A program made the position numbers and the translations under genes. Below, piece after piece: positions 1,763 to 18,604 of a stretch of DNA of 20,713 nt; position 1 is the first letter of the stretch; each line of letters begins with the position of its first letter. Location of the stretch: the IMG/VR virus record IMGVR_UViG_3300037246_000918, positions 1 to 20,713 of that record, one strand, 5' to 3'. The DNA comes from a virus. A model generated the notes under the pieces. That model was given only the letters and a program-made list of their open reading frames with translations, did no database searches and was not told where the DNA came from.

Positions 1763-4700
1763 TTGAGCTCATCTGAAGACCTACTACCGTTTGGTATATT
1801 CGGGATCGTAAATTATAATCCAACGCCTACTCCGGCGGATTTAGATAATGATCCTGATAGCGTTGATGCTAACTGGGCGTTGGTTGATGACGATGGACTT
1901 GACAACGTTATGGTTGTTAGGTTTGATGATCCAAGCGACGATCCGACTGTGGGAGCGGGTCTTCAGGAAATCAAAATTACTCTTAGGCGTGGTACAACTC
2001 TGGATGGTGCTGCGCCAGACTTTACTCTCACTATTGCTGAAGCCCCTGGCGGTGATAGGGTAACTCTGGTAACTGAAGAGCCAATCACTACAGCTGAAAG
2101 CACCGTCTATAGTTACTTTTGGGATGCTTCTGTTTTAGTTAACTCTACTGGCGTTTTGACAAGACTGCGGATCGACGGTCTTGCTAGTGGTGGCTCTCCA
2201 ACTGGTCGGCGTTGTTTGGAAGTCAACGCTGTTAGATGGATTGCTGAAGTAGGAGAAGCTGGTGGAACAACGCATGATGGTGCAGCCGATGTTGATGGTT
2301 CTGCAACCGTAACGGATGCCACTGCGGAAGTTGACCACCAAGCTGAAGCAGATGTAACTGGAACAGCAGCGGTAACAGATGCCACCGCCGAGGTTGATCA
2401 TCAAGCGATTGCAAATGTAACTGGAACCGCAACAATTACTTTGGCTGACGGTGAGCTGAAGAAGCTTGGTGCGGCAGATGTAACCGGCATCGCGACCATA
2501 ACGACCGCCGATCCAGGACTGATCAAGATTGCCGAGGCTGACGCTGCTGCTTTGGCAACGGTCCTGGCTATTTCCAGGGCAGACTACAGCGCCAACGCGG
2601 GGGTTAGTGGTGCTGCGACGGTCGATGCAAGAGCTCACCTCAATATTATTCTCGACGTGCCATTTGCGCCAAACGGCGAAGCAACAAATAATAATTTTTC
2701 TGGTTCTTACCTTGATATTGACGAAGATCCGTTTAACATAGATGCAAATTGGTTGACTGTTATCGATGAAACTGCCGTTGCTTTCTATATTTCAGATCTA
2801 CCAGATTCGCTTCAACACAAAGTTATTCATGGCGTTGATTTACATAACGCTGCTGTTACCGTTCGCAAAAATGCTTCTGGTGGAACCGATCCAACTGTTA
2901 GCATTCAGATGCTGGATAATGCTGCTCCAAGAGAACTAGTTGTTGATACTGAAACTGTAACTAGTGACGTATCTGAAGTTCACACGGGTACATTTGGCTT
3001 AGTCCCTCCAGGCAATTACATAAATCTTCCATTCCTGCGACTTTTCGTAGTTGGCACTTCATCTGGTGATAGAAATATTGATGTTGCTGCGGTGCGTATC
3101 TACCTCGCGATGGAAGGCACCAGAATCAGGGCTTCAGTTTCTGGAGCCGCAACAATCACCGATGCTACCGGTGGCCTTAGACATATTGGCGCTGCTGATG
3201 TAACAGGCGCGGCGACGATCACTCTTGCCACCGGACAGGTCAAGAAACTCGGCGCTGCCGATGTAACTGGCACAGCCACAGTAACTCTCGCCACTGCCAA
3301 AGTTTTACACATCGCTGCAGCCAACGTTACTGGTGACGCAACTGTAACTTTGGCAACGGCGCAAGTTGATCTCCAAGCAGATGCTTCTGTGACTGGGGTC
3401 GGCGACATTGATGCTGATGCTGATCTTACTTTGCGCGCGCTTGGTTCTGCTGTTGGTATTGCAACAGTAACCTTAGCCACCGCAACTATGGATTATTCTG
3501 CGTCAGCAAGTGTGACTGGGATTGCCACAGTTACTACTGCTGATGCCGGATTGATTCTAGGTACAGCCGATGCTGACGTAACTGGTACTGCCACTATAAC
3601 TTTGGCAACCGCCAAAGTTAACCATAGCGCCATCGCTTCAGTAACTGGCGTTTGTACTATCACCGACGCTACTGGTGACACTGGCGGAATCCAAGACGGC
3701 GCTGCTGATGTTACTGGAGTTGGAACGGTAACTTTGGCAACTGCCGAAGTTGAACACCAAGCCATCGCTTCCGTTACTGGTACTGCTACAATAACTTTAG
3801 CAACTGCTGAAGTTGAACACCAAGCAATAGCAAACGTGACTGGAGTAGCCACAGTCACCACCGCCGATGCTGATAGGATTCTTGGAACCACAGCTATCGT
3901 ATCTGGAACCGCCACTGTTACTGATGCCACAGCCGAGGTTCTTCACATCGCATCAGCGTCAGTAACTGGAGTTTGCACCATAACGCTGGCTACTGGAGAT
4001 GTTGGCGGCGCTCAAGACGGAGCAGCGGATGTAACCGGAATCGCAACCGTCACGCTTGCTACCGCTGCGGTTGATCATCAAGCTGATGCTGCGGTAACTG
4101 GTACCGCATCTATATTGGCAAGTGGTGGTCTAATTAAAATTGCTGATGCCTCGGTAACTGGCGTTGGTGACATAAACGCCGACGCTGATTTGACGCTTAG
4201 GGCACTTGCTTCAGTTACTGGAATTGCTACTGTAACTTTAGCCACTGCTGAAGTAAATCATAGCGCAAGTGCTGGCGTAACTGGAACTGCAACAATAACC
4301 TTGGCAACTGCCGAGGTAAGCCATAGCGCGTTGGCATCAGTAACAGGCGTTGCGATCATAACTCTTGCTACCGGTGACGTTGATGTCGGTGGCGGAATAC
4401 AAGATGGTGCCGCAGATGTAACTGGTTTGGCTACTGTTACTGCTGATGCTCGTGCCGATTATTCTGCTAGCGCTGATGTTACTGGCGTTGGTGATATAAC
4501 TGCCGATGCTGATTTAACTTTGGTGGGAGTAACTTCGGTAACTGGAGTTGCTACCGTCAACGCAAAGCCAGGACTCAAACTGTCAACTGCGGCTGCGTCA
4601 GTAACAGGAGTGGCATCTGTAAATGCTGATGCTGATCGTATTCTTGGAACAACTGTTAGTGTAACTGGAATTGCTACTACATCAGCTGATGGAATCGTAA

Positions 4701-4960
4701 GTTATAGCGGCGCATCTTCAGTAATTGGAATTGCAACGGTTGTTGGCGATGCAGGTGTAATCCGTTCAGCTATCGCTTCAGTTACTGGGGTTGCGTCCGT
4801 TTCCGCCGAACCAGATTTGATAGAAGCTGTCATCCTTGGGCGTATAGTTTTTACCTCCGAGATTTCCAAATCTATTAGAGTCGAAGTTGGAATTCGGAAA
4901 ACGATACGAACATCAAACCGATTAACAAAGAGTATTAATGTTATGGCAGAGGTCGCATAA
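1763..4960 (+). CDS. Giant repeat virion protein with two globular domains and 33 VTG-type repeats
   Basis: A 1065-residue protein with four zones. Residues 8-163 and 299-451 are two related globular domains, each containing L-D-x-D-x-D-P-x-x-x-D-A-N-W near its start and ending with E-V-N-A-V-R or D-V-A-A-V-R. I infer a beta-sandwich fold. Residues 177-292 hold about 6 repeats and residues 457-1018 hold 27 repeats with the consensus V-T-G-x-A-T-x-T, usually every 21 residues. A different, basic 45-residue C-terminus (1020-1065) follows. There is no signal peptide or membrane segment. The start is TTG at 1763 with AAGAGG at 1750-1755; no in-frame ATG occurs until residue 50. The stop overlaps the next ATG (TAATG). 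The location among neck genes suggests a fibrous neck, collar or whisker-like appendage, or a capsid-surface fibre. Function is not established. The composition is strikingly poor in aromatics, Cys, Pro and Met inside the repeats. Confidence 0.75.
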   Translation: MSSSEDLLPFGIFGIVNYNPTPTPADLDNDPDSVDANWALVDDDGLDNVMVVRFDDPSDDPTVGAGLQEIKITLRRGTTLDGAAPDFTLTIAEAPGGDRVTLVTEEPITTAESTVYSYFWDASVLVNSTGVLTRLRIDGLASGGSPTGRRCLEVNAVRWIAEVGEAGGTTHDGAADVDGSATVTDATAEVDHQAEADVTGTAAVTDATAEVDHQAIANVTGTATITLADGELKKLGAADVTGIATITTADPGLIKIAEADAAALATVLAISRADYSANAGVSGAATVDARAHLNIILDVPFAPNGEATNNNFSGSYLDIDEDPFNIDANWLTVIDETAVAFYISDLPDSLQHKVIHGVDLHNAAVTVRKNASGGTDPTVSIQMLDNAAPRELVVDTETVTSDVSEVHTGTFGLVPPGNYINLPFLRLFVVGTSSGDRNIDVAAVRIYLAMEGTRIRASVSGAATITDATGGLRHIGAADVTGAATITLATGQVKKLGAADVTGTATVTLATAKVLHIAAANVTGDATVTLATAQVDLQADASVTGVGDIDADADLTLRALGSAVGIATVTLATATMDYSASASVTGIATVTTADAGLILGTADADVTGTATITLATAKVNHSAIASVTGVCTITDATGDTGGIQDGAADVTGVGTVTLATAEVEHQAIASVTGTATITLATAEVEHQAIANVTGVATVTTADADRILGTTAIVSGTATVTDATAEVLHIASASVTGVCTITLATGDVGGAQDGAADVTGIATVTLATAAVDHQADAAVTGTASILASGGLIKIADASVTGVGDINADADLTLRALASVTGIATVTLATAEVNHSASAGVTGTATITLATAEVSHSALASVTGVAIITLATGDVDVGGGIQDGAADVTGLATVTADARADYSASADVTGVGDITADADLTLVGVTSVTGVATVNAKPGLKLSTAAASVTGVASVNADADRILGTTVSVTGIATTSADGIVSYSGASSVIGIATVVGDAGVIRSAIASVTGVASVSAEPDLIEAVILGRIVFTSEISKSIRVEVGIRKTIRTSNRLTKSINVMAEVA
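1784..2251 (+). other. First globular domain of the repeat protein
   Basis: Residues 8-163 of the 1065-residue protein. Key positions: L-D-N-D-P-D-S-V-D-A-N-W at 27-38, R-R-G at 75-77 and L-E-V-N-A-V-R-W at 152-159. It shares start and end patterns with the domain at 2657-3115, so an internal duplication is likely. The alternation of hydrophobic and polar residues suggests a beta-sandwich; a carbohydrate-binding role is possible but unproven. Confidence 0.5.
2291..2638 (+). repeat. Repeat block A (about 6 degenerate 21-residue units)
   Basis: Units start at residues 177, 198, 219, 240, 259 and 280 of the 1065-residue protein, each with V-x-G-x-A-T/A-x-T/V or a degraded form (the fifth, A-A-A-L-A-T-V, is weakest). 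The protein-level period is 19-21 residues (57-63 bases). This block separates the two globular domains. Confidence 0.75.
2657..3115 (+). other. Second globular domain of the repeat protein
   Basis: Residues 299-451. Key positions: L-D-I-D-E-D-P-F-N-I-D-A-N-W at 317-330 and I-D-V-A-A-V-R-I-Y at 439-447. It aligns by eye with the first domain and lies between repeat blocks A and B. Confidence 0.5.
3131..4816 (+). repeat. Repeat block B (27 units of about 21 residues)
   Basis: Units begin at residues 458, 479, 500, 521, 542, 562, 583, 605, 627, 649, 670, 691, 712, 733, 756, 777, 797, 817, 838, 859, 885, 905, 925, 947, 966, 987 and 1006. The core is S/D/N-V-T-G-x-A-T-V/I-T, commonly followed by L-A-T-A-E-V-x-H. 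Three longer spacings (627-649, 733-756, 859-885) carry a G-G-x-Q-D-G-A-A-D-V insertion. The repeat is much clearer in protein than in DNA because codons differ between copies. Confidence 0.85.
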
Positions 4961-5538
4961 TGGCTAGGAAATTGATTGACAGGTATTCAGATTATGATGT
5001 GGAGAGTATAGCGCCGACGCTCTTCAATTACTCAACTGATGCTAACGAAGTTGTGAACGATGTCGCTAGTGGTGAAGGATCGTTTAAAGTTTACGATCCA
5101 AGTAAAGATGAAGTTATTTCAGTTGACGAAGCAATCGGACAAACTGAACTTAACATTTCCAATGTTGGTGTATTCAATGTTGGTGATTCTGTCGAAATAA
5201 CTCAGAATGACGGAACACTTTTGGCAACAAGCGTTAACTCAGTCGATGCTGTTAATGGGACAGTAACATTTGCTGACGCTTTAACTGTGGCTGCTGATGT
5301 TGGCAACCGAGTCCGAGTTATATTTGGTGCGTCGATTGCCATGACTGAATTTGGAACTGCGGATCTTAATACTAGGAATTGGGGTTACGTTGGCGTAATG
5401 GAAAGCACTCATGCAGCACACTCCGATCCCAGAACGAAAACTTCTATGGATGTAGACATTGAAGTTAAGATTACTAATGGAGTCAAGATCTCTACTGATG
5501 TTATCTGTGCTACAATAAGCGAGGACGATTGTGGCTAA
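4960..5538 (+). CDS. Uncharacterised neck-region phage protein
   Basis: A 192-residue acidic protein, start ATG in a TAATG overlap with the repeat-protein stop, AGAGG at 4948-4952 with a 7-base spacer. Residues 60-124 form a short beta module (V-G-D-S-V-E-I-T-Q-N-D-G-T-L, then V-N-S-V-D-A-V-N-G-T-V-T-F) of a kind seen in various phage structural proteins. Residues 125-192 are another beta-rich part (F-G-A-S-I-A-M-T-E-F-G-T, then N-W-G-Y-V-G-V-M-E). There is no membrane segment. The next gene starts inside its 3' end (GTG at 5531). Neighbours imply a virion or neck role, but I do not recognise the protein as a whole. Confidence 0.55.
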   Translation: MARKLIDRYSDYDVESIAPTLFNYSTDANEVVNDVASGEGSFKVYDPSKDEVISVDEAIGQTELNISNVGVFNVGDSVEITQNDGTLLATSVNSVDAVNGTVTFADALTVAADVGNRVRVIFGASIAMTEFGTADLNTRNWGYVGVMESTHAAHSDPRTKTSMDVDIEVKITNGVKISTDVICATISEDDCG

Positions 5539-5917
5539 AGAAATCATAAAACGAAAGAAGCGAGTATCATGTATCGGGGATTTATCTGAAAGGGTGAAGC
5601 TTCACGATAGGAATATACAGGTTCCTGAATTTGGAAGCGTAGATTTCTCAGAGAATTTTAGTGGTACTAAAACTGTTTGGGCTAATATCAATACTGCCGC
5701 TGGGAAAGTATTTTTCACCGGAGCGAATATTGATGTTGGTCTAACTCACGAAATAATTATCCGTTATGATGATACCGTTACCTCTGAAACTTGGATTGAG
5801 TTTAACGGTAGGAATCTCAAGATTGTCAGCGTAGAGAATCTTGATGAGTATGGCGATTTTCTGAAATTGCGCTGCACAGATCGCGGTGAAAAAGATTTGG
5901 GGGCATCCCAAGCGTGA
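5531..5917 (+). CDS. Head-closure (stopper) protein, head-tail joining family
   Basis: A 128-residue protein matching the phage head-tail joining family (SPP1 gp16-like fold), which closes the connector channel and receives the tail. The usual features are visible: I-G-D-L-S-E-R-V-K-L-H near the N-terminus, a W-A-N-I-N central strand, H-E-I-I-I-R-Y-D-D, F-N-G-R-N-L-K-I-V-S-V-E-N and D-E-Y-G-D-F-L-K-L-R-C-T at the end. The start is GTG at 5531, with GAGGA at 5521-5525, and it overlaps the preceding gene by 8 bases. The N-terminus has an extra basic stretch (K-x-x-K-R-K-K-R) before the conserved part. The following gp10-like gene begins with a 4-base overlap. Length and order are both typical. 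Confidence 0.82.
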   Translation: MAKEIIKRKKRVSCIGDLSERVKLHDRNIQVPEFGSVDFSENFSGTKTVWANINTAAGKVFFTGANIDVGLTHEIIIRYDDTVTSETWIEFNGRNLKIVSVENLDEYGDFLKLRCTDRGEKDLGASQA

Positions 5918-6405
5918 GCGCTGTCGGGTACGAAGCCAACATCAATAATTCCAAAGCCTTTATGAAATTGCAAAGGCTAGTGCCCAAAAGTAAGAAGGTG
6001 ATCCGCGCTTCTTGGTTTGCACTCGGCAGAGATCTGAAAAACGAAGCCAATAAAGAAATTTTGCGGAAGCCAAAGGGTGGTAAGACGTATATCATAAGAA
6101 CAAAGAGTGGACGGCACAAGCGCCATGTAGCTTCTGCTCCTGGTGAAAGTCACGCTAATCTTACTGGTAAACTGCGTCGATCAATTAGCTGGAAGATACA
6201 TGGCTACCAGAGAATGGATTTTGGATATGGATTTGCGACAACATCTGGAAATCGCGCTCCAAAATACGATCACTGGATCGAGGATGGAACTAGGGATGGA
6301 AGAATCAAACCTCGCCCCAGTATTGAGAACGCGGTAAACAAAGTAAAAAATAATACGAATGATCATTTCCAGAAGCAAATGCTGAAGGAATTTAAAAGAG
6401 TATGA
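5914..6405 (+). CDS. Tail completion / neck protein, HK97 gp10-like family
   Basis: A 163-residue basic protein. It has a helix-rich N-terminus (L-Q-R-L-V-P-K-S-K-K-V-I-R-A-S) and a basic middle (residues 49-67). A family-type segment, G-x-L-R-R-S-I-S-W-K-I, follows. It ends with Y-D-H-W-I-E-D-G-T, then R-P-S-I-E-N-A-V, the characteristic 'pRPfl..A' region of gp10-like proteins. These proteins act at the junction of head and tail. GTG at 5914 overlaps the previous stop (GTGA). The ribosome site is weak (a G run at 5899-5903), so coupling is likely. Its 3' end overlaps the terminator gene by 4 bases (ATGA). Confidence 0.8.
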   Translation: MSAVGYEANINNSKAFMKLQRLVPKSKKVIRASWFALGRDLKNEANKEILRKPKGGKTYIIRTKSGRHKRHVASAPGESHANLTGKLRRSISWKIHGYQRMDFGYGFATTSGNRAPKYDHWIEDGTRDGRIKPRPSIENAVNKVKNNTNDHFQKQMLKEFKRV

Positions 6406-7985
6406 GAGCATCGGATATTATCTCACAATTGAGCGTTCTGCTTCCTCAACTCACAGATAAATTTACCACAGACATCAATGTATCTAGTATTTCAAGATCT
6501 GGAACTGAGATGACTGTTGCTTGCAGCGATCAACATGGCCTGTCTGTCGGCCAGGCGTTTGCAGTTACTGGATCTGATGTCCCAATTGCTATCTCATCTT
6601 TGACTAGATCTGGAGCTGTCGGTACTTTGGTTACTGCAACTGATCACGACTTGACGAGCGCCATTGCAACTTCGATCAGGATCACTGGCGCAACCGAATC
6701 TGAATTCAACGGTACGTTCCAACGCATTGATATAGTTAATCGCAAGACTATAACATTCACTATTCTCGATACTTCAGTTTTCACTTACGATAATCAGGCT
6801 TCAAAATTTGAAGGTGTATTTACTGATCTGTCAAATGAATCTGTTGTAGTTTCCTCATCTATCAGATCTACAGGATCTTTGAAAGCTACTTCTATAGGTG
6901 CTTCTGGTATTATGAGTGTGAAGAATCTCAGTGTTGAAGAGTTTGATGCATCTGCTTTGACTAATCTATCACTTTGGATATTTGTTGATGCAAATGTCTT
7001 TGCTAATTTGACTGTAACTGATACATTTAGAATGAGAATAAGCAGTGATGCTTCTCTAGGAACTGATTGGAATGAATACAGATTCGATAAATCAGTTTTT
7101 ACAGCAGACACTTGGGTACAAATATCCATAGACATTGTTAATGATACCCCAGATGATACTGATGGCACTATAGATTTAACTAAAATAATTTCCATGGTTA
7201 AGTTTTTTGTTGGCGCGGCATCATTTACTTTGGGTGATGTAATTTATTTCGATGATATGGATAGGAATATAACCACTGCTAGCGGCTTTCCAATTTTGCG
7301 AGATGCTGAATCTGCTTTGCGTGATTACAATACTACTTATGAAGTCACGGACGTGATCGATTCAGTTACGCTTAAGTTTGAACATGATGTAACTGGGCTT
7401 CCAGATCCAACCGGAACGATTGTACTCAGAACCATGCCGCGTATTTCATCGGGAATAAATATTGATCGCATCGTCGAAGCGTATACTGAAAACAATGTCG
7501 GTGATTACTGGGCCTTCGTAGTTTTGGAGGGAGTCTCCGCTTCGCAGAGTAGGCTGATTGAATCCGATGCGCTTGACAATCAGCAAAGCAACGCAAACTT
7601 CAGGCAGCAGATTATTGAACCGTTCACGGTTTATGTTTTCATTCCGGTAGAAAATGAAATCGCTGCTAGAGAATCACGGGATGAAGCATCTGATTTGTTC
7701 CGTCCGATTTTGAGATCCCTTTTGGCAAGCCGTTTTGATACTGGACTCTATGCAGATGTTCTTAACATGGTTCAGTTTACCGGACATGATTCGTACAATT
7801 ACGATTCTTCAGTATACATTCACGCATACAGCTTCCAACAAGTCGCCGATATTTATGCTGAGGATACTGTTGGTCCTGATCTCGATGTTGCTTTCCGCGA
7901 AATTGATTTCAGTATCTTTAGTGACTTCGGAACGCAAGTAAACTTCATGCAAGGCACTCCAAATCTAGATGACACTCCACTCTAG
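6402..7985 (+). CDS. Tail terminator protein enlarged by Ig-like and globular inserts
   Basis: A 527-residue protein, far longer than ordinary tail terminators (about 130-200 residues). Terminator-like sequence is split: residues 1-22 (A-S-D-I-I-S-Q-L-S-V-L-L-P-Q-L-T-D-K-F-T) and about 350-505 (I-D-R-I-V-E-A-Y, W-A-F-V-V-L-E-G, P-F-T-V-Y-V-F-I-P-V, R-P-I-L-R-S-L-L). Between them lie two Ig-like modules, at 27-62 and 63-125. An AT-rich globular insert follows at about 135-295. The stretch 296-345 looks like the rest of an Ig-like module interrupted by that insert. Terminators cap the tail tube and bind the neck. The next gene is DUF2635-like and then the sheath, exactly as in Mu, which supports the call. 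ATG at 6402 overlaps the gp10 stop (ATGA). Confidence 0.72.
   Translation: MRASDIISQLSVLLPQLTDKFTTDINVSSISRSGTEMTVACSDQHGLSVGQAFAVTGSDVPIAISSLTRSGAVGTLVTATDHDLTSAIATSIRITGATESEFNGTFQRIDIVNRKTITFTILDTSVFTYDNQASKFEGVFTDLSNESVVVSSSIRSTGSLKATSIGASGIMSVKNLSVEEFDASALTNLSLWIFVDANVFANLTVTDTFRMRISSDASLGTDWNEYRFDKSVFTADTWVQISIDIVNDTPDDTDGTIDLTKIISMVKFFVGAASFTLGDVIYFDDMDRNITTASGFPILRDAESALRDYNTTYEVTDVIDSVTLKFEHDVTGLPDPTGTIVLRTMPRISSGINIDRIVEAYTENNVGDYWAFVVLEGVSASQSRLIESDALDNQQSNANFRQQIIEPFTVYVFIPVENEIAARESRDEASDLFRPILRSLLASRFDTGLYADVLNMVQFTGHDSYNYDSSVYIHAYSFQQVADIYAEDTVGPDLDVAFREIDFSIFSDFGTQVNFMQGTPNLDDTPL
6804..7286 (+). other. AT-rich globular insertion inside the terminator gene
   Basis: Residues about 135-295. 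The sequence reads as a beta-sandwich, with L-S-L-W-I-F-V-D-A-N and W-V-Q-I-S-I-D-I-V-N repeating every few strands and Y-F-D-D-M near its end, as in many carbohydrate-binding or laminin-like domains. I counted 19, 20, 19 and 22 G+C per 60 bases in the lines at 6961, 7021, 7141 and 7201, against 32 and 27 in the lines at 7501 and 7561. The boundaries are approximate. Confidence 0.5.
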
Positions 7986-10793: not shown

Positions 10794-12382
10794 TGGCAAC
10801 CAACAGAGTCGTTTGGACATTCTTTGCCAAGGATAAGTTCAGTCGTGTAGCGGCCAAGATCAAAGCCCGAAGTCGTGAGATAAACAAAGAGTTCAGAAAG
10901 ATGCGGACTGATAGTAAGTCTGCGTCCAAGGCTGTTGCTAAACTCTCACAATCTTTGAAGCGAATGGCTATTGTCGGGGTCGCCGCACTTGCTGGATCGT
11001 TAAAAGCGTTTGGCAATATGGAAGCTGGCATCACAAATGTCCTAACTCTGTTGGATGATAAACAGATAGCTAAATTCGGCGGTGCCATACAAGACATGGC
11101 AACGAAGTCCCTCACCGAATTTGGTTTCTCTACTGAAGAAACCACCAAAGCTTTGTTCGATAACGTATCAGCTTTGGGCACAAGTCAGAAATCACTAGAT
11201 GCGTTTGCAGCAGCCCAGAGATTGGCAATTGGTGGCGTTACGAGTCTTGATGTTTCTGTTGACGGCATTACTTCAGTTATGAATGCTTACGCAGATGGGC
11301 TCCAAACATCAGAAGCAGTGGCCAACGCATTCTTCGCATCACAGAAAGCTGGTAAGGTAACTGTGGCGCAGTTGGCAGCTAATGTTGGTAAGGTCGCACC
11401 GATTGCCAAGAGTGCTGGAATTGGTTACAAGGAATTGCTGGCAACAATGTCGCAGCTGACTCTTGGTGGATTGTCGCCAGAAGAAGCAGCAACGTCACTA
11501 AAAGGTGCAATCACAAGTTTGCTCAAGCCATCTGCTGAGTCTGCAAAGATTCTTGCAGCTGAAGGTATTGCTTATGGTGCGAGCGCACTTGGGGCTCAGT
11601 CACTAGTTAAAACTCTTGAGCAAGTTGCCAAACTACGCGAGAAGAATGAGGATCTTCTAATCCAAGCAATTCCAAATATCCGTGGCTTTACTGCTGTGGC
11701 ATCCTTGGAATATGAGGCCCTAAAGAACATCACGAATACTGTTGCAACAATGCAGAAAGATCAGCTTAGCCCGGCATTTGAGATGCAAATGAAAACTTTG
11801 AACGCAGCAACTAGGTTGTTGAAAGGCAACTTCGTTGCAATGGGAATTTCGATTGGTGCTGTTCTGGCTCCGGCGTTTGTTTGGATAGCTGGTAAGCTAA
11901 CTACTATGATAAAATGGTTCAACAGTCTTAGTGCCACAACAAAGAAGTGGATCGTCTACACTTTGGTTGGAGTCGGAGCTTTGATAGCTGTGTTCGTGGC
12001 TGCTGCCGCTATAGTGGCATTTTTTGGAACCGCGTTCGCTGTTGTTGGTGGCGCCATTGCCAGTGCTGCGGCGGCTGTTTTTGGTGCAATCGTAAGTTGG
12101 CCATTCGCAATTATTGCTGCTCTTGTAATTGCTGGTGGTGCTATCTGGGCTTTCTGGGATGACATTAAGGGAGTCGGACGCGCAATTGGAAGTTGGTTTG
12201 GAATGGGTGACGGTGAAACGATGGAGGTGAAGGGGTCCGGTGAATTGGCAACCTCCAGTAAATTTGAAGGCAATCTTGCTGTTGGGCTTGAAAAGGGACT
12301 AACCGGTGATCTTACAACCAAGAGCAGTGGTGATACTAAGACTCTGGATCTTGCTACGAACATGGAAGGTGCAACAGGATGA
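10793..12382 (+). CDS. Tail tape measure protein
   Basis: A 529-residue protein that sets tail length. It starts with a basic, helix-rich segment (residues 1-60), then a domain with the tape-measure pattern: F-G-N-M-E-A-G-I-T-N-V, Y-K-E-L-L-A-T-M-S-Q-L-T-L-G-G-L-S-P-E-E-A-A-T, and L-L-I-Q-A-I-P-N-I-R-G. Residues about 385-455 hold two or three long hydrophobic stretches, as in tape measures that enter the host membrane. The C-terminus is rich in Gly, Ser and Thr. The start is GTG in a TAGTG overlap, with AGGAG at 10779-10783. If the usual rule of about 0.15 nm per residue holds, the tail would be near 80 nm; that is a calculation, not a measurement. Confidence 0.85.
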   Translation: MATNRVVWTFFAKDKFSRVAAKIKARSREINKEFRKMRTDSKSASKAVAKLSQSLKRMAIVGVAALAGSLKAFGNMEAGITNVLTLLDDKQIAKFGGAIQDMATKSLTEFGFSTEETTKALFDNVSALGTSQKSLDAFAAAQRLAIGGVTSLDVSVDGITSVMNAYADGLQTSEAVANAFFASQKAGKVTVAQLAANVGKVAPIAKSAGIGYKELLATMSQLTLGGLSPEEAATSLKGAITSLLKPSAESAKILAAEGIAYGASALGAQSLVKTLEQVAKLREKNEDLLIQAIPNIRGFTAVASLEYEALKNITNTVATMQKDQLSPAFEMQMKTLNAATRLLKGNFVAMGISIGAVLAPAFVWIAGKLTTMIKWFNSLSATTKKWIVYTLVGVGALIAVFVAAAAIVAFFGTAFAVVGGAIASAAAAVFGAIVSWPFAIIAALVIAGGAIWAFWDDIKGVGRAIGSWFGMGDGETMEVKGSGELATSSKFEGNLAVGLEKGLTGDLTTKSSGDTKTLDLATNMEGATG

Positions 12383-13593
12383 ATCTTAGTGATCTGGATG
12401 GAGCTTCGTACCGTGGTGCGTTCTTCTATGTCAAAAGTTCCGAGGTTGCTGGTGGTAGAAAGGATGCCAAGAAGGAATTTATTGATTCCGACTTGCAAAT
12501 TATTGAAGATCTTGGTAAAAAGCAGCGAGCGTTCACAATCAACGGCATTGTATCTGAGAGACGCGACAATTCTGGAAATGTAATCCTATCATATTTCCAA
12601 GTGCGCGATGCTTTACTTGCTGCGCTTGAGAAAGGCAAGACTGGAATTCTAATCCATCCGTGGTACGGCGAAGTTCTGAATGTGGTTTGCAGAACATTCA
12701 CAATGTCTGAAGATGTTACTAGACTTGGTGAATGTAATGTAAATATGTCATTTGAAATATCGAATACAGATGGCGTACCTCTAGCAATCCCATCTGTGCT
12801 GAGCAAAGTGGCAACTGGAACTGCATCAGCCATAGACACTGCCACAGGCATCTTTGCAGAAATTTGGAATATAGCTGAGAAAGCAACTGGAAATTTTCAG
12901 GCTGGCGTCGATAAAGCAAATGGGTATGTCGATTCAGTCAACGAAGCTACTAAGCCAATTGCAAAGTTGGCTAACGAAATAGATCAACATACAAATTTGC
13001 TGAATACTTTCAGTAGTAATGTTGTGACTCTCGTAAGTTCACCGGCGGATCTCTCCAATAGTATTTATGGAATTATGGAGAGTATTGATAATCTTTATGA
13101 ATCTCCAAGCGATTCGCTCTTTGCTTTCAAAGGATTGTTTAATTTTGGCGATAACGATATAAACTCACCGTACAAAACATCTATATCAGTCCAAAAGAAA
13201 ACGAACAATGATGTCTTTAACAATGGGATCCAAAGTGCGGCTCTGAGTTATAGTTACTTGAACGCATCGCAAATTGAATACAAGACTGTTCTTGACATAA
13301 ACGAAACGGAAACTGATCTGGAAGAGCAGTATCAAAAACTATTCCGTAACGAAGATATGTATCCAGAGCTGGTCGATTCGCTTACTGATTTGCGCACCAT
13401 AACTCAAGGATTTTTCAACGAACAGAAGCTAATAGCAAGCCAAATAATTAACGTCAATTCAAATAGAATGTCAACTAGATTGTTGGCATTTAATTATTAT
13501 GGTGAATCTACAGACGGCGAAGCTATCGCTGAATTGAATGGCCTGTACGATCTGGCAAGCATACAAGGTGACATCAGGATCTTTACAGAATGA
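12379..13593 (+). CDS. Baseplate hub protein / DNA circularization-type (Mu gpN-like)
   Basis: A 404-residue protein, positioned where Mu gpN lies. Residues 1-60 contain the clear N-terminal pattern of the DNA-circularization family: L-D-G-A-S-Y-R-G-A-F-F-Y-V, K-K-E-F-I-D-S-D and I-E-D-L-G-K-K. These are followed by a G-I-V-S-E-R-R segment and the H-P-W-Y-G-E-V-L-N-V-V-C motif near residue 95. Residues 140-404 are divergent, with long helical stretches and a later Q-N-based run. In Mu-like phages this protein belongs to the central baseplate hub; the family name comes from an older proposed role. ATG overlaps the tape-measure stop (ATGA), with GGAAGG at 12364-12369. Confidence 0.82.
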   Translation: MNLSDLDGASYRGAFFYVKSSEVAGGRKDAKKEFIDSDLQIIEDLGKKQRAFTINGIVSERRDNSGNVILSYFQVRDALLAALEKGKTGILIHPWYGEVLNVVCRTFTMSEDVTRLGECNVNMSFEISNTDGVPLAIPSVLSKVATGTASAIDTATGIFAEIWNIAEKATGNFQAGVDKANGYVDSVNEATKPIAKLANEIDQHTNLLNTFSSNVVTLVSSPADLSNSIYGIMESIDNLYESPSDSLFAFKGLFNFGDNDINSPYKTSISVQKKTNNDVFNNGIQSAALSYSYLNASQIEYKTVLDINETETDLEEQYQKLFRNEDMYPELVDSLTDLRTITQGFFNEQKLIASQIINVNSNRMSTRLLAFNYYGESTDGEAIAELNGLYDLASIQGDIRIFTE

Positions 13594-14741
13594 AAATTGA
13601 AGTTCGTGGAACTGAGTATAGCGGATGGACTTCGGCAAGTGCCACGATCAATCTCGATACGCTCAGCAATAAATTCAGTTTCAAGGTAACATCGGAAGAA
13701 GGTAAGGCTCTCCCATTCAAAGGTGGTGAGCCATGTACTGTTAGAGTTGATGGTGAACTTGTACTTACTGGCAACATTGAAGTTGTGACTGTGGGTGGAG
13801 ACGGCGACTCCCATACAATTTCAATTACTGGGCGGGATAGAACTGGTGATGTTGTAGATTCAAAAATTGGATCTCTTTCTGATATACGCCCGCCAATAAC
13901 TCTTACGCAAGTCATAGAATTGCTCTTGGTTCATATTAAGAGTCCTCTGAAAGTTGTCGAGCAAACTTGGACCAAAGCTTTTCAAGAAACCGAGGATCTT
14001 GCGTCACCAGAATTTGGGCAATCCGTTTGGGATTTTATTCAGGGATTGGCTAGAAAACGCCAGGTTCTGTTGACTTCAGATGCTTACGGTAACATCGTGA
14101 TTACTAGAGCAGCTGGTGAATTTATTGAGGCCACGATTCAAAATAAAGTTAAGAGTGATAGCAACAACGTGCTTGACTACTCAGTAAGTTACGACACCAC
14201 CGGAATATATTCAATATATCGAGCAGCTGGACAGGAAAGCCCAGTTTCAATTAACGATGGAGCGACAAGATCAAACTACAGTATCGTTGAGCAAATTTCC
14301 GCTATCCAAGATCCAAATATCAGACTTGGACGACAGCTTTGCGTGATGTCTGAGAAATCAGGATCACACGTAGATTTAACTGAGCGAAATAAGTGGGAGT
14401 ACAATATCCGACAAGCCAGAAGCAGAGTTTACTCAGCCACAGTTCACGGATTCAGAAATCAGACTGGCAGTTTGTGGGCAATAAACAAAACTGTCAGTGT
14501 CAATGATGAATTTGCTGGGATAAACGCTAGAATGTTGATAAACTCCGTAAAGTTTTCTATCAGCGATTCTGGAAAGGAAACTGTTTTGTCTTTGGTTAAT
14601 AAAGATTCTTATACTCTGGAACTTCCGACCCAAACTTCGATCGATCAGATTGGACTCAAGTTTGCCGAGACGCCAGAGAAAGGAATCATTTTTGTAGAGA
14701 ATCCTGATGATCCTGAAGATCTGTTTGGTCCTGGCCGATGA
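13590..14741 (+). CDS. Baseplate hub protein (Mu gpP-like)
   Basis: A 383-residue protein with the arrangement of Mu gpP and related hub proteins of the late control D group. The N-terminus (Y-S-G-W-T-S-A-S-A-T-I-N-L-D-T-L-S-N-K-F-S-F) is a typical first beta segment. It is followed by P-F-K-G-G-E-P-C-T-V-R-V-D-G-E-L-V-L-T-G and S-I-T-G-R-D-R-T-G-D-V-V-D, a strongly diagnostic stretch. The rest is beta-rich, with Y-x-V-S-Y-D-T-T-G-I-Y and W-A-I-N-K-T-V-S-V-N-D. ATG at 13590 overlaps the previous stop (ATGA). It should bind the spike encoded next and the tube above. The fold is well matched by eye, although I ran no search. Confidence 0.85.
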   Translation: MKIEVRGTEYSGWTSASATINLDTLSNKFSFKVTSEEGKALPFKGGEPCTVRVDGELVLTGNIEVVTVGGDGDSHTISITGRDRTGDVVDSKIGSLSDIRPPITLTQVIELLLVHIKSPLKVVEQTWTKAFQETEDLASPEFGQSVWDFIQGLARKRQVLLTSDAYGNIVITRAAGEFIEATIQNKVKSDSNNVLDYSVSYDTTGIYSIYRAAGQESPVSINDGATRSNYSIVEQISAIQDPNIRLGRQLCVMSEKSGSHVDLTERNKWEYNIRQARSRVYSATVHGFRNQTGSLWAINKTVSVNDEFAGINARMLINSVKFSISDSGKETVLSLVNKDSYTLELPTQTSIDQIGLKFAETPEKGIIFVENPDDPEDLFGPGR

Positions 14742-15517
14742 ATGTAGTGTCAATGATAAAACGCTTGGTAAGATGGGCAGTAATCACTTCTTGCAGTAGT
14801 GACGATAAGGACTTCCCGATTCACCAAACTACCTACGTTGGGAAAGTTGGTGATGGCCTGGCTTGGTATCCGTATGGGTTCCATGCTAATCCTGGTCCAG
14901 GCGCTCTTGCTTTGATGTTTTCAGTTAATTCCGATCCTGAAAACAGAGTTGTCTTTCCAGGTAGCCCAAAGGAACGCGGTGGAGTTCTGCTTCCAACGCC
15001 GCTTTCCCAAGGTGAAGTTCTGGTATACAATCCCACCACGCAATCTTTTATCCACATGAAAAATAATGGGGAAATTGATATTAAAACTGCTATTAGCGAT
15101 ATCAACATCGAGACAATAGCTGGTGATATCAACATCGAGACAACGTCTGGTGATATAAATGCCAGAACGACTACTGGCAATATGGATCTCAATGCAGTCA
15201 ACGCAACGCTTACTGCTCTTGGGATAGCCCAAGTAAATGCGACAGGACTGGTTGACATCAATGCTTTGGCCGCTGTCGATATTGATGCAGTTGGAGACAT
15301 CACTATTGCAAGCAGCGTTGGGACTGTGGAGATAACTGGCTTAACAGGGATCAGAACAAAGAGTACCAGCACAAGATTCCAAAATGCGGCCGGGACTGAT
15401 GATCTTGGTTTGGTTCTGCGAACATGGTTCAACTATATCGCAACCAGTAGCTTTCACACAGTAGCATTTAGAAACCAAGCTGCAACAGCTCGAAATGCCA
15501 TCGACGCATTGAGGTAA
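14738..15517 (+). CDS. Baseplate central spike protein (Mu gp45-like)
   Basis: A 259-residue protein. Residues about 1-95 look like the OB-fold base of gp45-type spikes (I-K-R-L-V-R-W-A-V-I-T, D-F-P-I-H-Q-T-T, V-V-F-P-G-S-P-K-E-R-G-G). Residues about 110-210 are repetitive, of the kind that folds into a triple-stranded beta-helix: D-I-N-I-E-T-I-A-G, D-I-N-I-E-T-T-S-G, D-I-N-A-R-T-T-T-G. The C-terminus is short and ends without an obvious HxH metal-binding motif of the kind found at the tip of Mu gp45. ATG overlaps the gpP stop (ATGA); a second ATG at 14753 may be the true start because family members often begin at M-I-x-R-L. The spike pierces the outer surface of the host cell. Confidence 0.8.
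   Translation: MNVVSMIKRLVRWAVITSCSSDDKDFPIHQTTYVGKVGDGLAWYPYGFHANPGPGALALMFSVNSDPENRVVFPGSPKERGGVLLPTPLSQGEVLVYNPTTQSFIHMKNNGEIDIKTAISDINIETIAGDINIETTSGDINARTTTGNMDLNAVNATLTALGIAQVNATGLVDINALAAVDIDAVGDITIASSVGTVEITGLTGIRTKSTSTRFQNAAGTDDLGLVLRTWFNYIATSSFHTVAFRNQAATARNAIDALR
15098..15143 (+). repeat. 19-base direct repeat in the spike gene
   Basis: The same 19 bases (gatatcaacatcgagacaa) occur at 15098-15116 and 15125-15143, offset by 27 bases (9 codons). They encode D-I-N-I-E-T in two successive beta-helix repeats. Exact identity of DNA, unlike the scattered codons of the neck protein, suggests a recent tandem duplication. Confidence 0.8.
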
Positions 15518-15519
15518 AA

Positions 15520-16683
15520 ATGACAGTTGGAATTGATGCCTATCTTACTCTCACTAACAATGTCTATGATATTGAACTAGACAATAGTGGTGATATAAAA
15601 TCCGAAGATTTCTTTGACTCTGCAATTCTGGTTAGTCTATTTGCTGAGAGTCGAGCTAGTGAATCCGAAGTTTCAGAATCACATATGCGTCGTGGCTGGA
15701 TAGGGAACGAAAGTACGCCTGGATTTGAAATCGGATCCAAGATATGGATTTACGAACAGGCACGCTTGACCCGAACTGTTCTGAATGGAATCACAACTGC
15801 TGCCAGACAATCTTTGCAGTGGCTTATTGATTCTGGGTACGCAGAGTCAATAGTAACATCGGCAAGCATCACAATCACAGGTGTTAGACTGGATATTAAA
15901 ATCAATCGTCCGAATTCAAAAGTTGAGCATAGGTATTATGATCTCTGGGATAATACTGGCGTGCCTTCCCCAGAGCCACAACTATTTTTTCAGCTAATAA
16001 TTCCAACCGAAGATTTGGACCCGATTGGCGCAACGTCATTTGCTGGGTACAATATCTTTGACAAGATTGGCAATCCAGACTACGCAGTTGATGTACTTGT
16101 ATACGTGGAGAATGAATTCTGTGGTCGTGGCTCTCCAGCAATCACTACTGGTATCGGTTGGCATCCTGATAGCACAATAACGATTCATAATGAGCAGAAT
16201 AATTTTATAGTTGGCAGCGGTGGACGTGGCGGTAGAGGTGGTGAGACTTCTGCTGATGGCGGAGTTGGCTCTGGCGGTAACGGTGGTAACTCGTTTGGGT
16301 TCGGCGGATTGCCAAATGGTAATGATGGTAACTTCGTTGTAACTCCTGATGTCCCACCGGCTGGATCAGCTACTGGCGGTGTTGAAGATAGAATCGCAGG
16401 AGATGGTGAGCAAGGCTTCCCAGGGATCGAAATGTTCCATCCAATAACGCTAATAAATGGTGGTGCGATAGTTGGTGGTTGCGGCGGTGGTGGAGGTGGT
16501 GGCATAGATGGCGGGGATGGCGGTGAAGGTGGAGTACACGGCTTCCAATTCGCTCCTAACTCTGGCGATCCTGGAACTGGAACTGATCCTGGCACTGGTG
16601 GCGGGTGGAACTTTGCGATTATAACCAATGGCTATGATATAACTTATAACCCAATTGGAAATTTACGTGGGGGCGTTTCCTAA
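15520..16683 (+). CDS. Mu gp46-like baseplate protein fused to a glycine-rich adhesin-like tail
   Basis: A 387-residue protein. Residues 1-145 match Mu gp46-type wedge proteins (about 145 residues): Y-L-T-L-T-N-N-V-Y-D-I-E-L-D-N-S-G-D-I, A-I-L-V-S-L-F-A-E-S-R-A, R-R-G-W-I-G-N and Q-S-L-Q-W-L-I-D-S-G. Residues 150-230 are an extra domain of beta type. Residues 231-380 are glycine-rich, with two blocks each introduced by an N-x-x-x-I-V-G-x-G-G-like turn: I-H-N-E-Q-N-N-F-I-V-G-S-G-G and L-I-N-G-G-A-I-V-G-G-C-G-G. This resembles glycine-rich segments in phage receptor-binding proteins such as T4-type gp38 adhesins. GAGG at 15511-15514 precedes the ATG. The C-terminal role is inference. Confidence 0.78.
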   Translation: MTVGIDAYLTLTNNVYDIELDNSGDIKSEDFFDSAILVSLFAESRASESEVSESHMRRGWIGNESTPGFEIGSKIWIYEQARLTRTVLNGITTAARQSLQWLIDSGYAESIVTSASITITGVRLDIKINRPNSKVEHRYYDLWDNTGVPSPEPQLFFQLIIPTEDLDPIGATSFAGYNIFDKIGNPDYAVDVLVYVENEFCGRGSPAITTGIGWHPDSTITIHNEQNNFIVGSGGRGGRGGETSADGGVGSGGNGGNSFGFGGLPNGNDGNFVVTPDVPPAGSATGGVEDRIAGDGEQGFPGIEMFHPITLINGGAIVGGCGGGGGGGIDGGDGGEGGVHGFQFAPNSGDPGTGTDPGTGGGWNFAIITNGYDITYNPIGNLRGGVS

Positions 16684-17999
16684 TGGCAATCGAACTACCG
16701 ACATCAGCAACTGAAGTCGATCAAAGAATGAAGGTTGACGTTAATCGTGAACTTCCCAACGCCAATTCATTTCTAAAGAACAGCTGGCTTGGCGCTTTGG
16801 TTACTGCCTTCGCCAATCGAATCTATGATTTCTATTATGCTTTGCGAAGGGCTGAACTTGAAGCAATTCCTGACACGGCAGTTCTGAATCTCGAACAGTG
16901 GGCTAATATCTGGAACGTAATCAGAAAAGCAGCATCACCGGCAGCCGGTAACTTGGTAGTGACAGGAACTGCTGGTGGAGAGATCGTAGCTGGCGGTGAT
17001 CCTACTATTTGGAGTCTCGGATCTGGAGAAAGATTCCAAGCAACATCGCCTGGAACAATAGTTCTGCAATCACTTTCGATCACATCAATAACAAGATCTG
17101 GAACAGTCGCAACGCTGACTACTGCAAGCGATCACCTTATAGCATCCAATGTTCTGATATCTATAACTGGATCCGACCAATCTGATTATAATGTTACTGA
17201 TTCTGCGTGTACCGTTACTGGCGACAAAACTTTGACATTTACTGTCGCTGGTTCACCGACAACACCAGCAACTGGGACTATGCTTCTTGGTTTTACTTCC
17301 GTATCCATTCCGGTACAGGCTCTTGACTTTGGAGTGGATAGCAACCAGCTTTTTGATACCGAGCTTGTCCTGGTGAGTCCACTTACTGATGTCGATGATA
17401 GTGCAAGCGTTGACTACGGTGCGCTCGGTGGTGGAGCAGATCAGGAAACAGATACTGAAATGCGCGGAAGAATGATCTTTAAGATTCAGAATCCAATCGC
17501 TCACTTTAATTCATCAGAAATAATTACTGTGGCGAAAACTATTCCCGGCGTAACTAGAGTTTGGGTTGAGGAAATTACTCCGCTGGTTGGACAAGTTACA
17601 ATTTATTTCATGCGAGACAATGATGCGGATCCAATCCCTGATGTTTCTGAGGTCGCAGAAGTCAAAGCTGCAATAGATGGCATTATGCCAGGCAACACGG
17701 TCACCACAGACGTAATTGTTGGTGCACCAACTGAAGAATCTACTGACTTCTCGTTCTCTGCGGTTGATCCAGATACTTCAACGATGAAGGAAGCTGTGAC
17801 TGCCAGCCTTCAGCAATTCTTTGCAGAGAGAACTGAAGTTGGAGTTGACGTTGTGGAAGAAGCGTACAACGCAGCAATTTTCAATACGGTAGACTTGGTT
17901 ACTGGAGCAGAGTTGGTTAGCTTTACACTCACTAGCCCGTCGGCTGATATAACTGTCGCCTCTGGTGAGATTGGAACTTTGGGGAATGTGACTTTCTAA
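16683..17999 (+). CDS. Baseplate J-like wedge protein (Mu gp47-like) with an Ig-like insert
   Basis: A 438-residue protein with the Baseplate J pattern. Residues 1-125 include M-K-V-D-V-N-R-E-L-P, S-W-L-G-A-L-V-T-A-F-A-N-R-I-Y-D-F and L-E-Q-W-A-N-I-W-N-V. Residues 205-300 include V-Q-A-L-D-F-G-V-D-S-N, T-D-T-E-M-R-G-R and A-K-T-I-P-G-V-T-R-V-W-V, and the C-terminus follows. Residues about 130-203 form an extra Ig-like module (S-I-T-S-I-T-R-S-G-T-V-A-T-L-T-T-A), absent from the simplest members and matching a module in the terminator gene. ATG overlaps the gp46-like stop (TAATG). The protein forms the wedges that hold the sheath and fibres. Confidence 0.85.
   Translation: MAIELPTSATEVDQRMKVDVNRELPNANSFLKNSWLGALVTAFANRIYDFYYALRRAELEAIPDTAVLNLEQWANIWNVIRKAASPAAGNLVVTGTAGGEIVAGGDPTIWSLGSGERFQATSPGTIVLQSLSITSITRSGTVATLTTASDHLIASNVLISITGSDQSDYNVTDSACTVTGDKTLTFTVAGSPTTPATGTMLLGFTSVSIPVQALDFGVDSNQLFDTELVLVSPLTDVDDSASVDYGALGGGADQETDTEMRGRMIFKIQNPIAHFNSSEIITVAKTIPGVTRVWVEEITPLVGQVTIYFMRDNDADPIPDVSEVAEVKAAIDGIMPGNTVTTDVIVGAPTEESTDFSFSAVDPDTSTMKEAVTASLQQFFAERTEVGVDVVEEAYNAAIFNTVDLVTGAELVSFTLTSPSADITVASGEIGTLGNVTF
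17070..17291 (+). other. Ig-like module inside the baseplate J gene
   Basis: Residues about 130-203. It shares the I-x-S-I/L-T-R-S-G-x-V pattern, a later T-A-x-D-H, and K-T-L-T-F-T near its end with residues 63-125 of the terminator protein. A 9-base identity (agatctgga) recurs at 6495, 6606 and 17094. The matched order of motifs points to common origin. Confidence 0.55.
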
Positions 18000-18604
18000 T
18001 GGCTGAACTTCCGATCGTACTGACGAAACAACAGCAAGCTCAAACATTTGCGAATTATTTGCCAAGCGGCAAAATCTTTGGTGGCAAAAATGTAATTAGC
18101 ACCAAGATACGGAAGCTACTTCTTGGATTCGCAACTGAAGTCCTAAGAGTTGATGAAGTTATAAAATTGTTCAGGCGAGACACTGTTCCTGATACAACGG
18201 AAAATTTCATTGACGAGTGGGAAGCGGCGCTAGGGATTCCAGATAGTTGTCTTACTGGAACCGGAACTTCAGTACAACGTAGAATAGAATTTTTGATAAA
18301 GTTAGCTGGATATGGAGTGCAAACTGCTCAAGATTTTATTGATCTAGCTTTGAGGTTTGGAATTGTTATCGGTGCTGAAGGCGGAGCCAATCGTGGTATT
18401 TATGGCAAGGAGCCAACAATATCTTTTGGAAGCGACAAGGAAGCAAGGTTCACTTTAGTAATTGCCCCAATCGAAAATATTGGTGAGAAATTTACCTATA
18501 CGTTCCCAATAACTTTTGGTACGAAGGATCTTTCCACTTTGGAATGTCTATTTAATAAATTGAAGCCAGCCAACGTACAGCTATTTTATGAGAATGAAAT
18601 CTAG
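17999..18604 (+). CDS. Baseplate protein, Mu gp48-like (DUF2313 / YmfQ family)
   Basis: A 201-residue protein in the gp48 position, directly after baseplate J and before the fibre. Typical features are Y-L-P-S-G-K-I-F near the N-terminus, a helix with L-G-F-A-T-E-V-L-R-V, D-E-W-E-A-A-L-G-I-P-D and the following R-R-x-E-F-L-I-K-L-A-G. It ends in L-E-C-L-F-N-K-L-K-P-A-N-V-Q-L-F-Y, the conserved C-terminal signature. This family links the baseplate wedge to tail fibres. ATG overlaps the J stop (TAATG). Length and sequence are ordinary for the family. Confidence 0.85.
   Translation: MAELPIVLTKQQQAQTFANYLPSGKIFGGKNVISTKIRKLLLGFATEVLRVDEVIKLFRRDTVPDTTENFIDEWEAALGIPDSCLTGTGTSVQRRIEFLIKLAGYGVQTAQDFIDLALRFGIVIGAEGGANRGIYGKEPTISFGSDKEARFTLVIAPIENIGEKFTYTFPITFGTKDLSTLECLFNKLKPANVQLFYENEI

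Follow-up and report, generated by a model that had tools for sequence, protein, structure and literature searches.

The window, meaning the whole stretch of DNA analysed here, is a complete IMG/VR record of 20,713 bases from a phage known only from environmental DNA. A gp6-like head-tail connector gene (785–1348, + strand; PF05135 at 26 bits, phrog_442 at 4e-15) is followed by the gene of a 130-aa protein of family PF23140 (1359–1751, +), which we call the bead, and, 12 bp downstream, by the gene of main interest (1763–4960, +), whose product we call the rope. The rope gene adjoins that of a 192-aa protein (4960–5538, +), directly after which come the head closure (5531–5917) and neck1/tail-completion (5914–6405) genes. 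Further along lie the genes for a 527-aa protein (6402), the sheath (8218) and the tape measure (10793), and Mu-like baseplate genes (12379–18604). A preliminary description had placed the rope gene between connector and stopper genes; this position held, and the bead and 192-aa protein genes were found to lie there as well.

The 192-aa protein gave no convincing Pfam or PHROG family and no structure match. Its gene also follows the rope gene at locus L002 (loci are cited by our own numbers) and is present at L003, where the upstream sequence is cut; as a guess, its product could be a fibre-neck adaptor. The 527-aa protein (6402–7985, +) holds a stretch of about 165 aa that is missing from its 363-aa homologue at L002 and present at L003, and in this sequence comparison the stretch looks like an inserted module. 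A GP46-like baseplate protein (15520–16683, +) has a long, glycine-rich C-terminal half (GGRGGRGGETSADGG...) that resembles glycine-rich phage adhesins.

PF23140 carries the name 'Podophage GP4 fiber I protein gp80', and the bead gene matched it at 144.2 bits against a cutoff of 27, over model positions 1–128 of 128. A phmmer comparison of the bead protein with 8jou_a gave 1.2e-14; there are 10 bead chains in this PDB entry, 8jou, whose title is 'Fiber I and fiber-tail-adaptor of phage GP4'. The model of a related bead (L110) had the same chain as its best Foldseek match (E 3.5e-7), followed by Bas63 9mt4_L (4.7e-5) and Sf14 9c39_K (5.1e-4), both connector/neck beads of contractile phages. When bacterial genomes were scanned with six peptide patterns of the window bead protein, none was found to encode a relative.

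The rope gene is a single open frame of 1065 aa with a TTG start at 1763, preceded about 9 nt upstream by AGAGG, and a stop at 4960. The 33 repeats in two blocks claimed in the preliminary description were borne out by the frame, a motif count and a periodicity test, with a unit of mostly 20–23 residues. A VxG motif occurs in 31 regular copies and two degenerate ones, the latter in two 41-residue gaps, with a spacing of 20–23 residues and once of 26; shuffled rope sequences held 6.3 such motifs on average and 14 at most (500 shuffles). Self-identity peaked at a lag of 21 residues (z 14.0). There were 24 clean units, each 20 or 21 aa long, and those of 21 residues gave the consensus A[DS]VTGxATVTLATAEVxHxAx, in which V3 and G5 are invariant. 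At the DNA level, a single two-copy tandem with a 63-bp unit stands out, so the repeats are old.

Two globular domains of about 165 aa stand before and between the blocks, as had been proposed, and are homologous to each other. The first (1766–2260, +; residues 2–166) is followed by repeat block 1 (2285–2638, +; 6 repeats, residues about 175–292), the second (2639–3127, +; residues 293–455) by repeat block 2 (3131–4837, +; 27 repeats, residues about 457–1025). The C-terminal tail (4838–4957, +) consists of short strand-like units of about 10–11 residues, as read by eye. Inspection of the sequences, with no statistic attached, also indicated that this tail is kept in L002 and L098–L100 and that other ropes likewise end in short units, of different sequence.

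Relatives of the rope retained this architecture. The ropes of L098–L100 (1278 aa, four domains) and L002 (at least 861 aa, two domains, start cut) have the same neighbours as that of the window and keep the repeat period, as the earlier reading would have it, as well as the 165-aa domains; L097 holds a partial relative whose N-terminal part differs. Seven further homologous copies of the domain were found in relatives. With dS near 1.2, the comparison with L098 gave a dN/dS of about 0.31 and that with L002 one of 0.25, which denotes purifying selection and thus a real, constrained gene. In L102 and L103, of the same lineage, the gene after the bead gene begins with unrelated sequence and shows no repeats in the part before the contig ends.

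Searches of the rope against Pfam, PHROGs, the PDB and 50,697 GenBank phage records returned no convincing match. The GP4-like and related ropes were compared with the PDB, in a library excluding chains of unknown residues, and no rope chain was found. A remote-homology search of the globular domains, proposed as a check on the first reading, yielded no family: the domain profile matched nothing in Pfam, and the best of its weak PDB matches, the MS2 coat protein at E 0.015, was not accepted.

Structure prediction of the repeats, likewise suggested earlier, gave beta strands at low confidence. The AF2 monomer of rope residues 290–720 had a pLDDT of 55 and a pTM of 0.39, values too low for the model to be used in fold searching; its repeats were all-beta, mostly one long strand each, with a confidence of about 35–67 per block of 10. 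A whisker of the T4 fibritin type, a long segmented alpha-helical coiled coil, was set aside on this low-confidence all-beta model. In a read-through model of the L110 pair, where the natural in-frame TAA between the genes served as linker, the bead folded and the rope was not ordered in the monomer chain. Low-confidence ropes are what would be expected of a chain that needs its beads; this is weak evidence, since a disordered chain would look alike.

These models bear on the leading alternative, in which the repeats would fold on their own, as a beta-solenoid or a trimeric beta-shaft of the triple beta-spiral type, into a stiff collar fibre, the bead being no more than its adaptor. The alternation of small or hydrophobic with polar residues, the V and G invariant in each clean repeat and the predicted strands all suit such a fold. 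Against it stand the low confidence of the repeats, although only monomers were modelled, and the poor beta-helix predictions reported for spacers that we take as comparable (PMC13243795). Moreover, the 10 bead copies in GP4 fibre I are too many for a mere adaptor. We therefore consider a self-standing fibre improbable; the whisker idea of the preliminary description is retained, with the 1065-residue protein probably acting as a rope for separate bead subunits.

Adjacency of a bead gene and a periodic gene proved to be general. The survey covered 112 loci with a bead gene, taking downstream neighbours (+1 genes) of at least 150 aa and a self-identity z above 5 at lags 16–26. A period of about 20 residues was found in the +1 gene at 89 of 105 loci (median z 13.7, mostly at lag 20); at the other offsets, from -5 to +6, it was found in 4 of 562 genes of at least 150 aa. 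Because a large share of these loci are closely related, the beads were clustered at 60% identity, with a threshold of z >3 at lags 19–22. After this dereplication, the +1 gene was periodic in 6 of 19 clusters and lacked a clear period in 10, compared with 1 of 92 at the other tested offsets; the sole outlier, at +3, fits a displaced rope (L009). An earlier, smaller clustering had given 5 of 11 clusters at 60% and 6 of 13 at 70%. Bead clusters were used because BLAST clustering of the +1 genes put almost every rope in a single family, probably in part owing to composition. The period tests varied in their lag windows, in their z thresholds (5 and 3) and in the use of letters or residue classes. 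Named phages with a periodic +1 gene include BcepIL02 (gp56), MW202462, MEP402 (gp62) and OR003941. We found no description of this wide pairing in the open-access literature searched.

Rope length changes in whole repeats. The 68 complete ropes of one group measure 185, 196, 215/216, 276, 295/296 or 411 aa, and 66 of the 68 lengths equal 15 or 16 modulo 20, which indicates that these ropes differ by complete units. The earlier suggestion that repeat number controls length is supported by these steps of 20 aa. Across groups, the sequences have diverged. A profile of the window repeats scored above all 20 shuffles for MEP402 (32.4 bits), L006 (15.7) and L121 (4.8), compared with -4.9 bits for the GP4-like rope, where 16 of 20 shuffles scored as well, and most other ropes did not surpass all their shuffles either; sequence similarity thus holds only within rope groups.

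Several further features of bead loci were recorded. Many rope C-termini (L017, L025, L029, L110, L105, L122 and others) carry W-x9-W repeats or ExR-type units of about 10 residues, and LD motifs at the start of some ropes are found again in a phage stabilisation-type protein encoded by the same genomes (L006, L007); these are possible docking signals. The 411-aa rope (L052:6389–7624) has about 115 extra aa as a non-repeat insert within its C-terminal W-repeat region, which, judged by its sequence, is another domain placed in a rope protein. PhiCbK is known for its head filament. In this phage, a bead homologue is followed by a 647-aa protein with no clear period (gp072 and gp073, L143:3833–6172).

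Taken together, we consider it quite probable that 1763–4960 encodes the rope, or backbone, of a beaded neck fibre on which gp80-type beads are strung, with the number of repeats setting bead number and length. The collar or whisker fibre proposed at the outset gains support from the adjoining gene of the GP4 gp80 family, the Sf14/Bas63 bead fold and the recurring period. Separate bead subunits from 1359–1751, probably dimers like the beads of GP4 fibre I and of the Sf14 whiskers, would sit along the 20–23-residue repeats. If each repeat bound one subunit, or a fixed multiple, the rope would act as a ruler that determines the number of beads and the length of the fibre. The GP4-like rope has about 11 repeats for the 10 bead chains of 8jou, which suggests about one repeat per subunit; at that stoichiometry, and with one rope per fibre, the window fibre would carry some 33 bead subunits. 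The two 165-aa domains would be side modules borne by the rope and would most likely bind surfaces, a role to be read against their lack of a fold or family match.

Gene order and the solved homologues point to the neck as the probable location: in this phage, whose contractile tail is Mu-like, the fibre would hang at the connector region. A bead-and-rope fibre could instead be attached to the baseplate or tail, and Sporosarcina phage Lietuvens and Psychrobacillus phage PVJ1 (L005 and L136) do have the bead gene amid genes of the baseplate, while mycobacteriophage CELFI has it near minor tail genes, so a bead alone is no proof of a neck site. In the window, however, the pair comes after the connector gene and ahead of head closure, an arrangement shared with the GP4 relatives, and homologues of solved position belong to neck/connector or fibre-tail-adaptor structures; attachment elsewhere is accordingly very improbable for this phage. 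In the two Bacillales phages (L005:7001–8326, L136:3501–4927), the bead gene stands between baseplate J and a DUF2313-type gene whose N-terminal part looks rope-like (in L136, with residue classes, z 4.4 at a period of 20); baseplates, too, may bear bead-rope fibres. That the protein is an elongated decoration of the capsid surface, unrelated in function to the adjoining bead, as the preliminary description had also considered, is scarcely credible: the bead gene falls in PHROG 240, which bears the label 'head protein', but nothing was found in favour of a capsid-surface location, bead homologues of solved position are neck or fibre parts, and the pairing of bead and rope recurs.

Few neck fibres are structurally understood. 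We see about an even chance that the pairing represents a largely unrecognised neck-fibre module of many tailed phages, in which a conserved bead accompanies a fast-diverging rope, repeats of about 20 residues serve as a ruler, binding or enzyme domains can be inserted, and the window is an extreme case. Because ropes diverge so fast, they are missed by ordinary searches. The bead gene together with the 20-residue period offers a simple rule by which ropes could be located and the length of a fibre predicted from sequence, and the pairing makes the molecular-ruler idea testable.

Known systems resemble this one to different degrees. In the Felix O1-type whiskers (Sf14, PDB 9C39; Bas63, 9MT4), beads of the gp80 fold are likewise found at the neck, and Sf14 shares with the window a contractile tail with a Mu-like baseplate. 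In Sf14, gp30 and gp31 each contribute two chains to a whisker set, in which a single gp30 chain is threaded through the up whisker as well as the down whisker (PMC11821841). Felix O1 ORF54 and ORF55 are homologues of Sf14 gp30 and gp31, and ORF55, a gp31-like bead, matched the bead profile. The partner chain differs from the window rope in its length of 166 aa and its lack of a detectable 20-residue period, and a comparison of the window rope with ORF54 showed no similarity (BLAST E 3.8); these whiskers are very short, and their gene order is partner then bead.

The myophage A-1(L) has flexible, bead-chain-like neck fibres made of gp82-gp81-gp80, with many copies of one bead protein (PMC10966104). 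Its beads are trimers of gp81, its neck ring is a 15-mer and no rope was described (PMC10966104). One of its parts, gp80, is numbered like the GP4 bead; the two systems are likened here by description.

The LSH1 gp34–gp36/Slicko01 module also combines a long domain-bearing protein and repeat-like spacers with a nearby gp80-like gene, and its authors noted predictable domains consistently beside 'hallucinatory' sequence (PMC13243795). It differs in its lyase-like beta-helix domains, which are not the 165-aa domain, and in LSH1 lies downstream of the lysis module; its repeats were not recognised by the authors (PMC13243795). In Slicko01, which they cite, we examined a 1843-aa protein (L147:22880–29100) after the idea had formed: it has globular domains and a C-terminal region that looks 20-periodic (z 6.0 at lag 20 and 6.8 at lag 40 over the whole protein), with a weak bead homologue two genes away (E 3e-5, in a small set). 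This region probably explains the poorly predicted spacers, and the bead-rope reading thus offers a likely account of sequence recently termed hallucinatory (PMC13243795).

The closest counterpart is fibre I of GP4, in which the chain 8JOU_g is described as dimeric and as a fibril that links the tail nozzle collar to an adhesin (PMC13243795). A GP4-like IMG/VR record (L127) encodes a bead 100% identical to 8jou_a, followed directly by a 325-aa gene product with a period at lag 20 (z 5.0) and about 11 repeats, as segmented by eye. According to the abstract of the GP4 study, the phage reportedly carries five fibres I, anchored via a 15-fold fibre-tail adaptor; an elongated rope protein is said to link the five gp80 dimers of each. 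Bead family, a repeat gene directly downstream of the bead, a period of about 20 residues and a place after the connector genes are common to both. GP4 is a short-tailed phage with a rope of 325 aa, whereas the window encodes 1065 aa with 33 repeats and two 165-aa domains set in the rope of a contractile-tailed phage, and the two ropes have no sequence similarity (BLAST E 1.0). With no similarity to either the GP4-like rope or ORF54, the links rest on period, gene order and bead; on these grounds the window rope would work like that of GP4, whether or not all ropes share a common descent. GP4 defines the kind, to which the window adds the length of 33 repeats and the domains set within the rope, and the survey the breadth of the bead-rope pairing.
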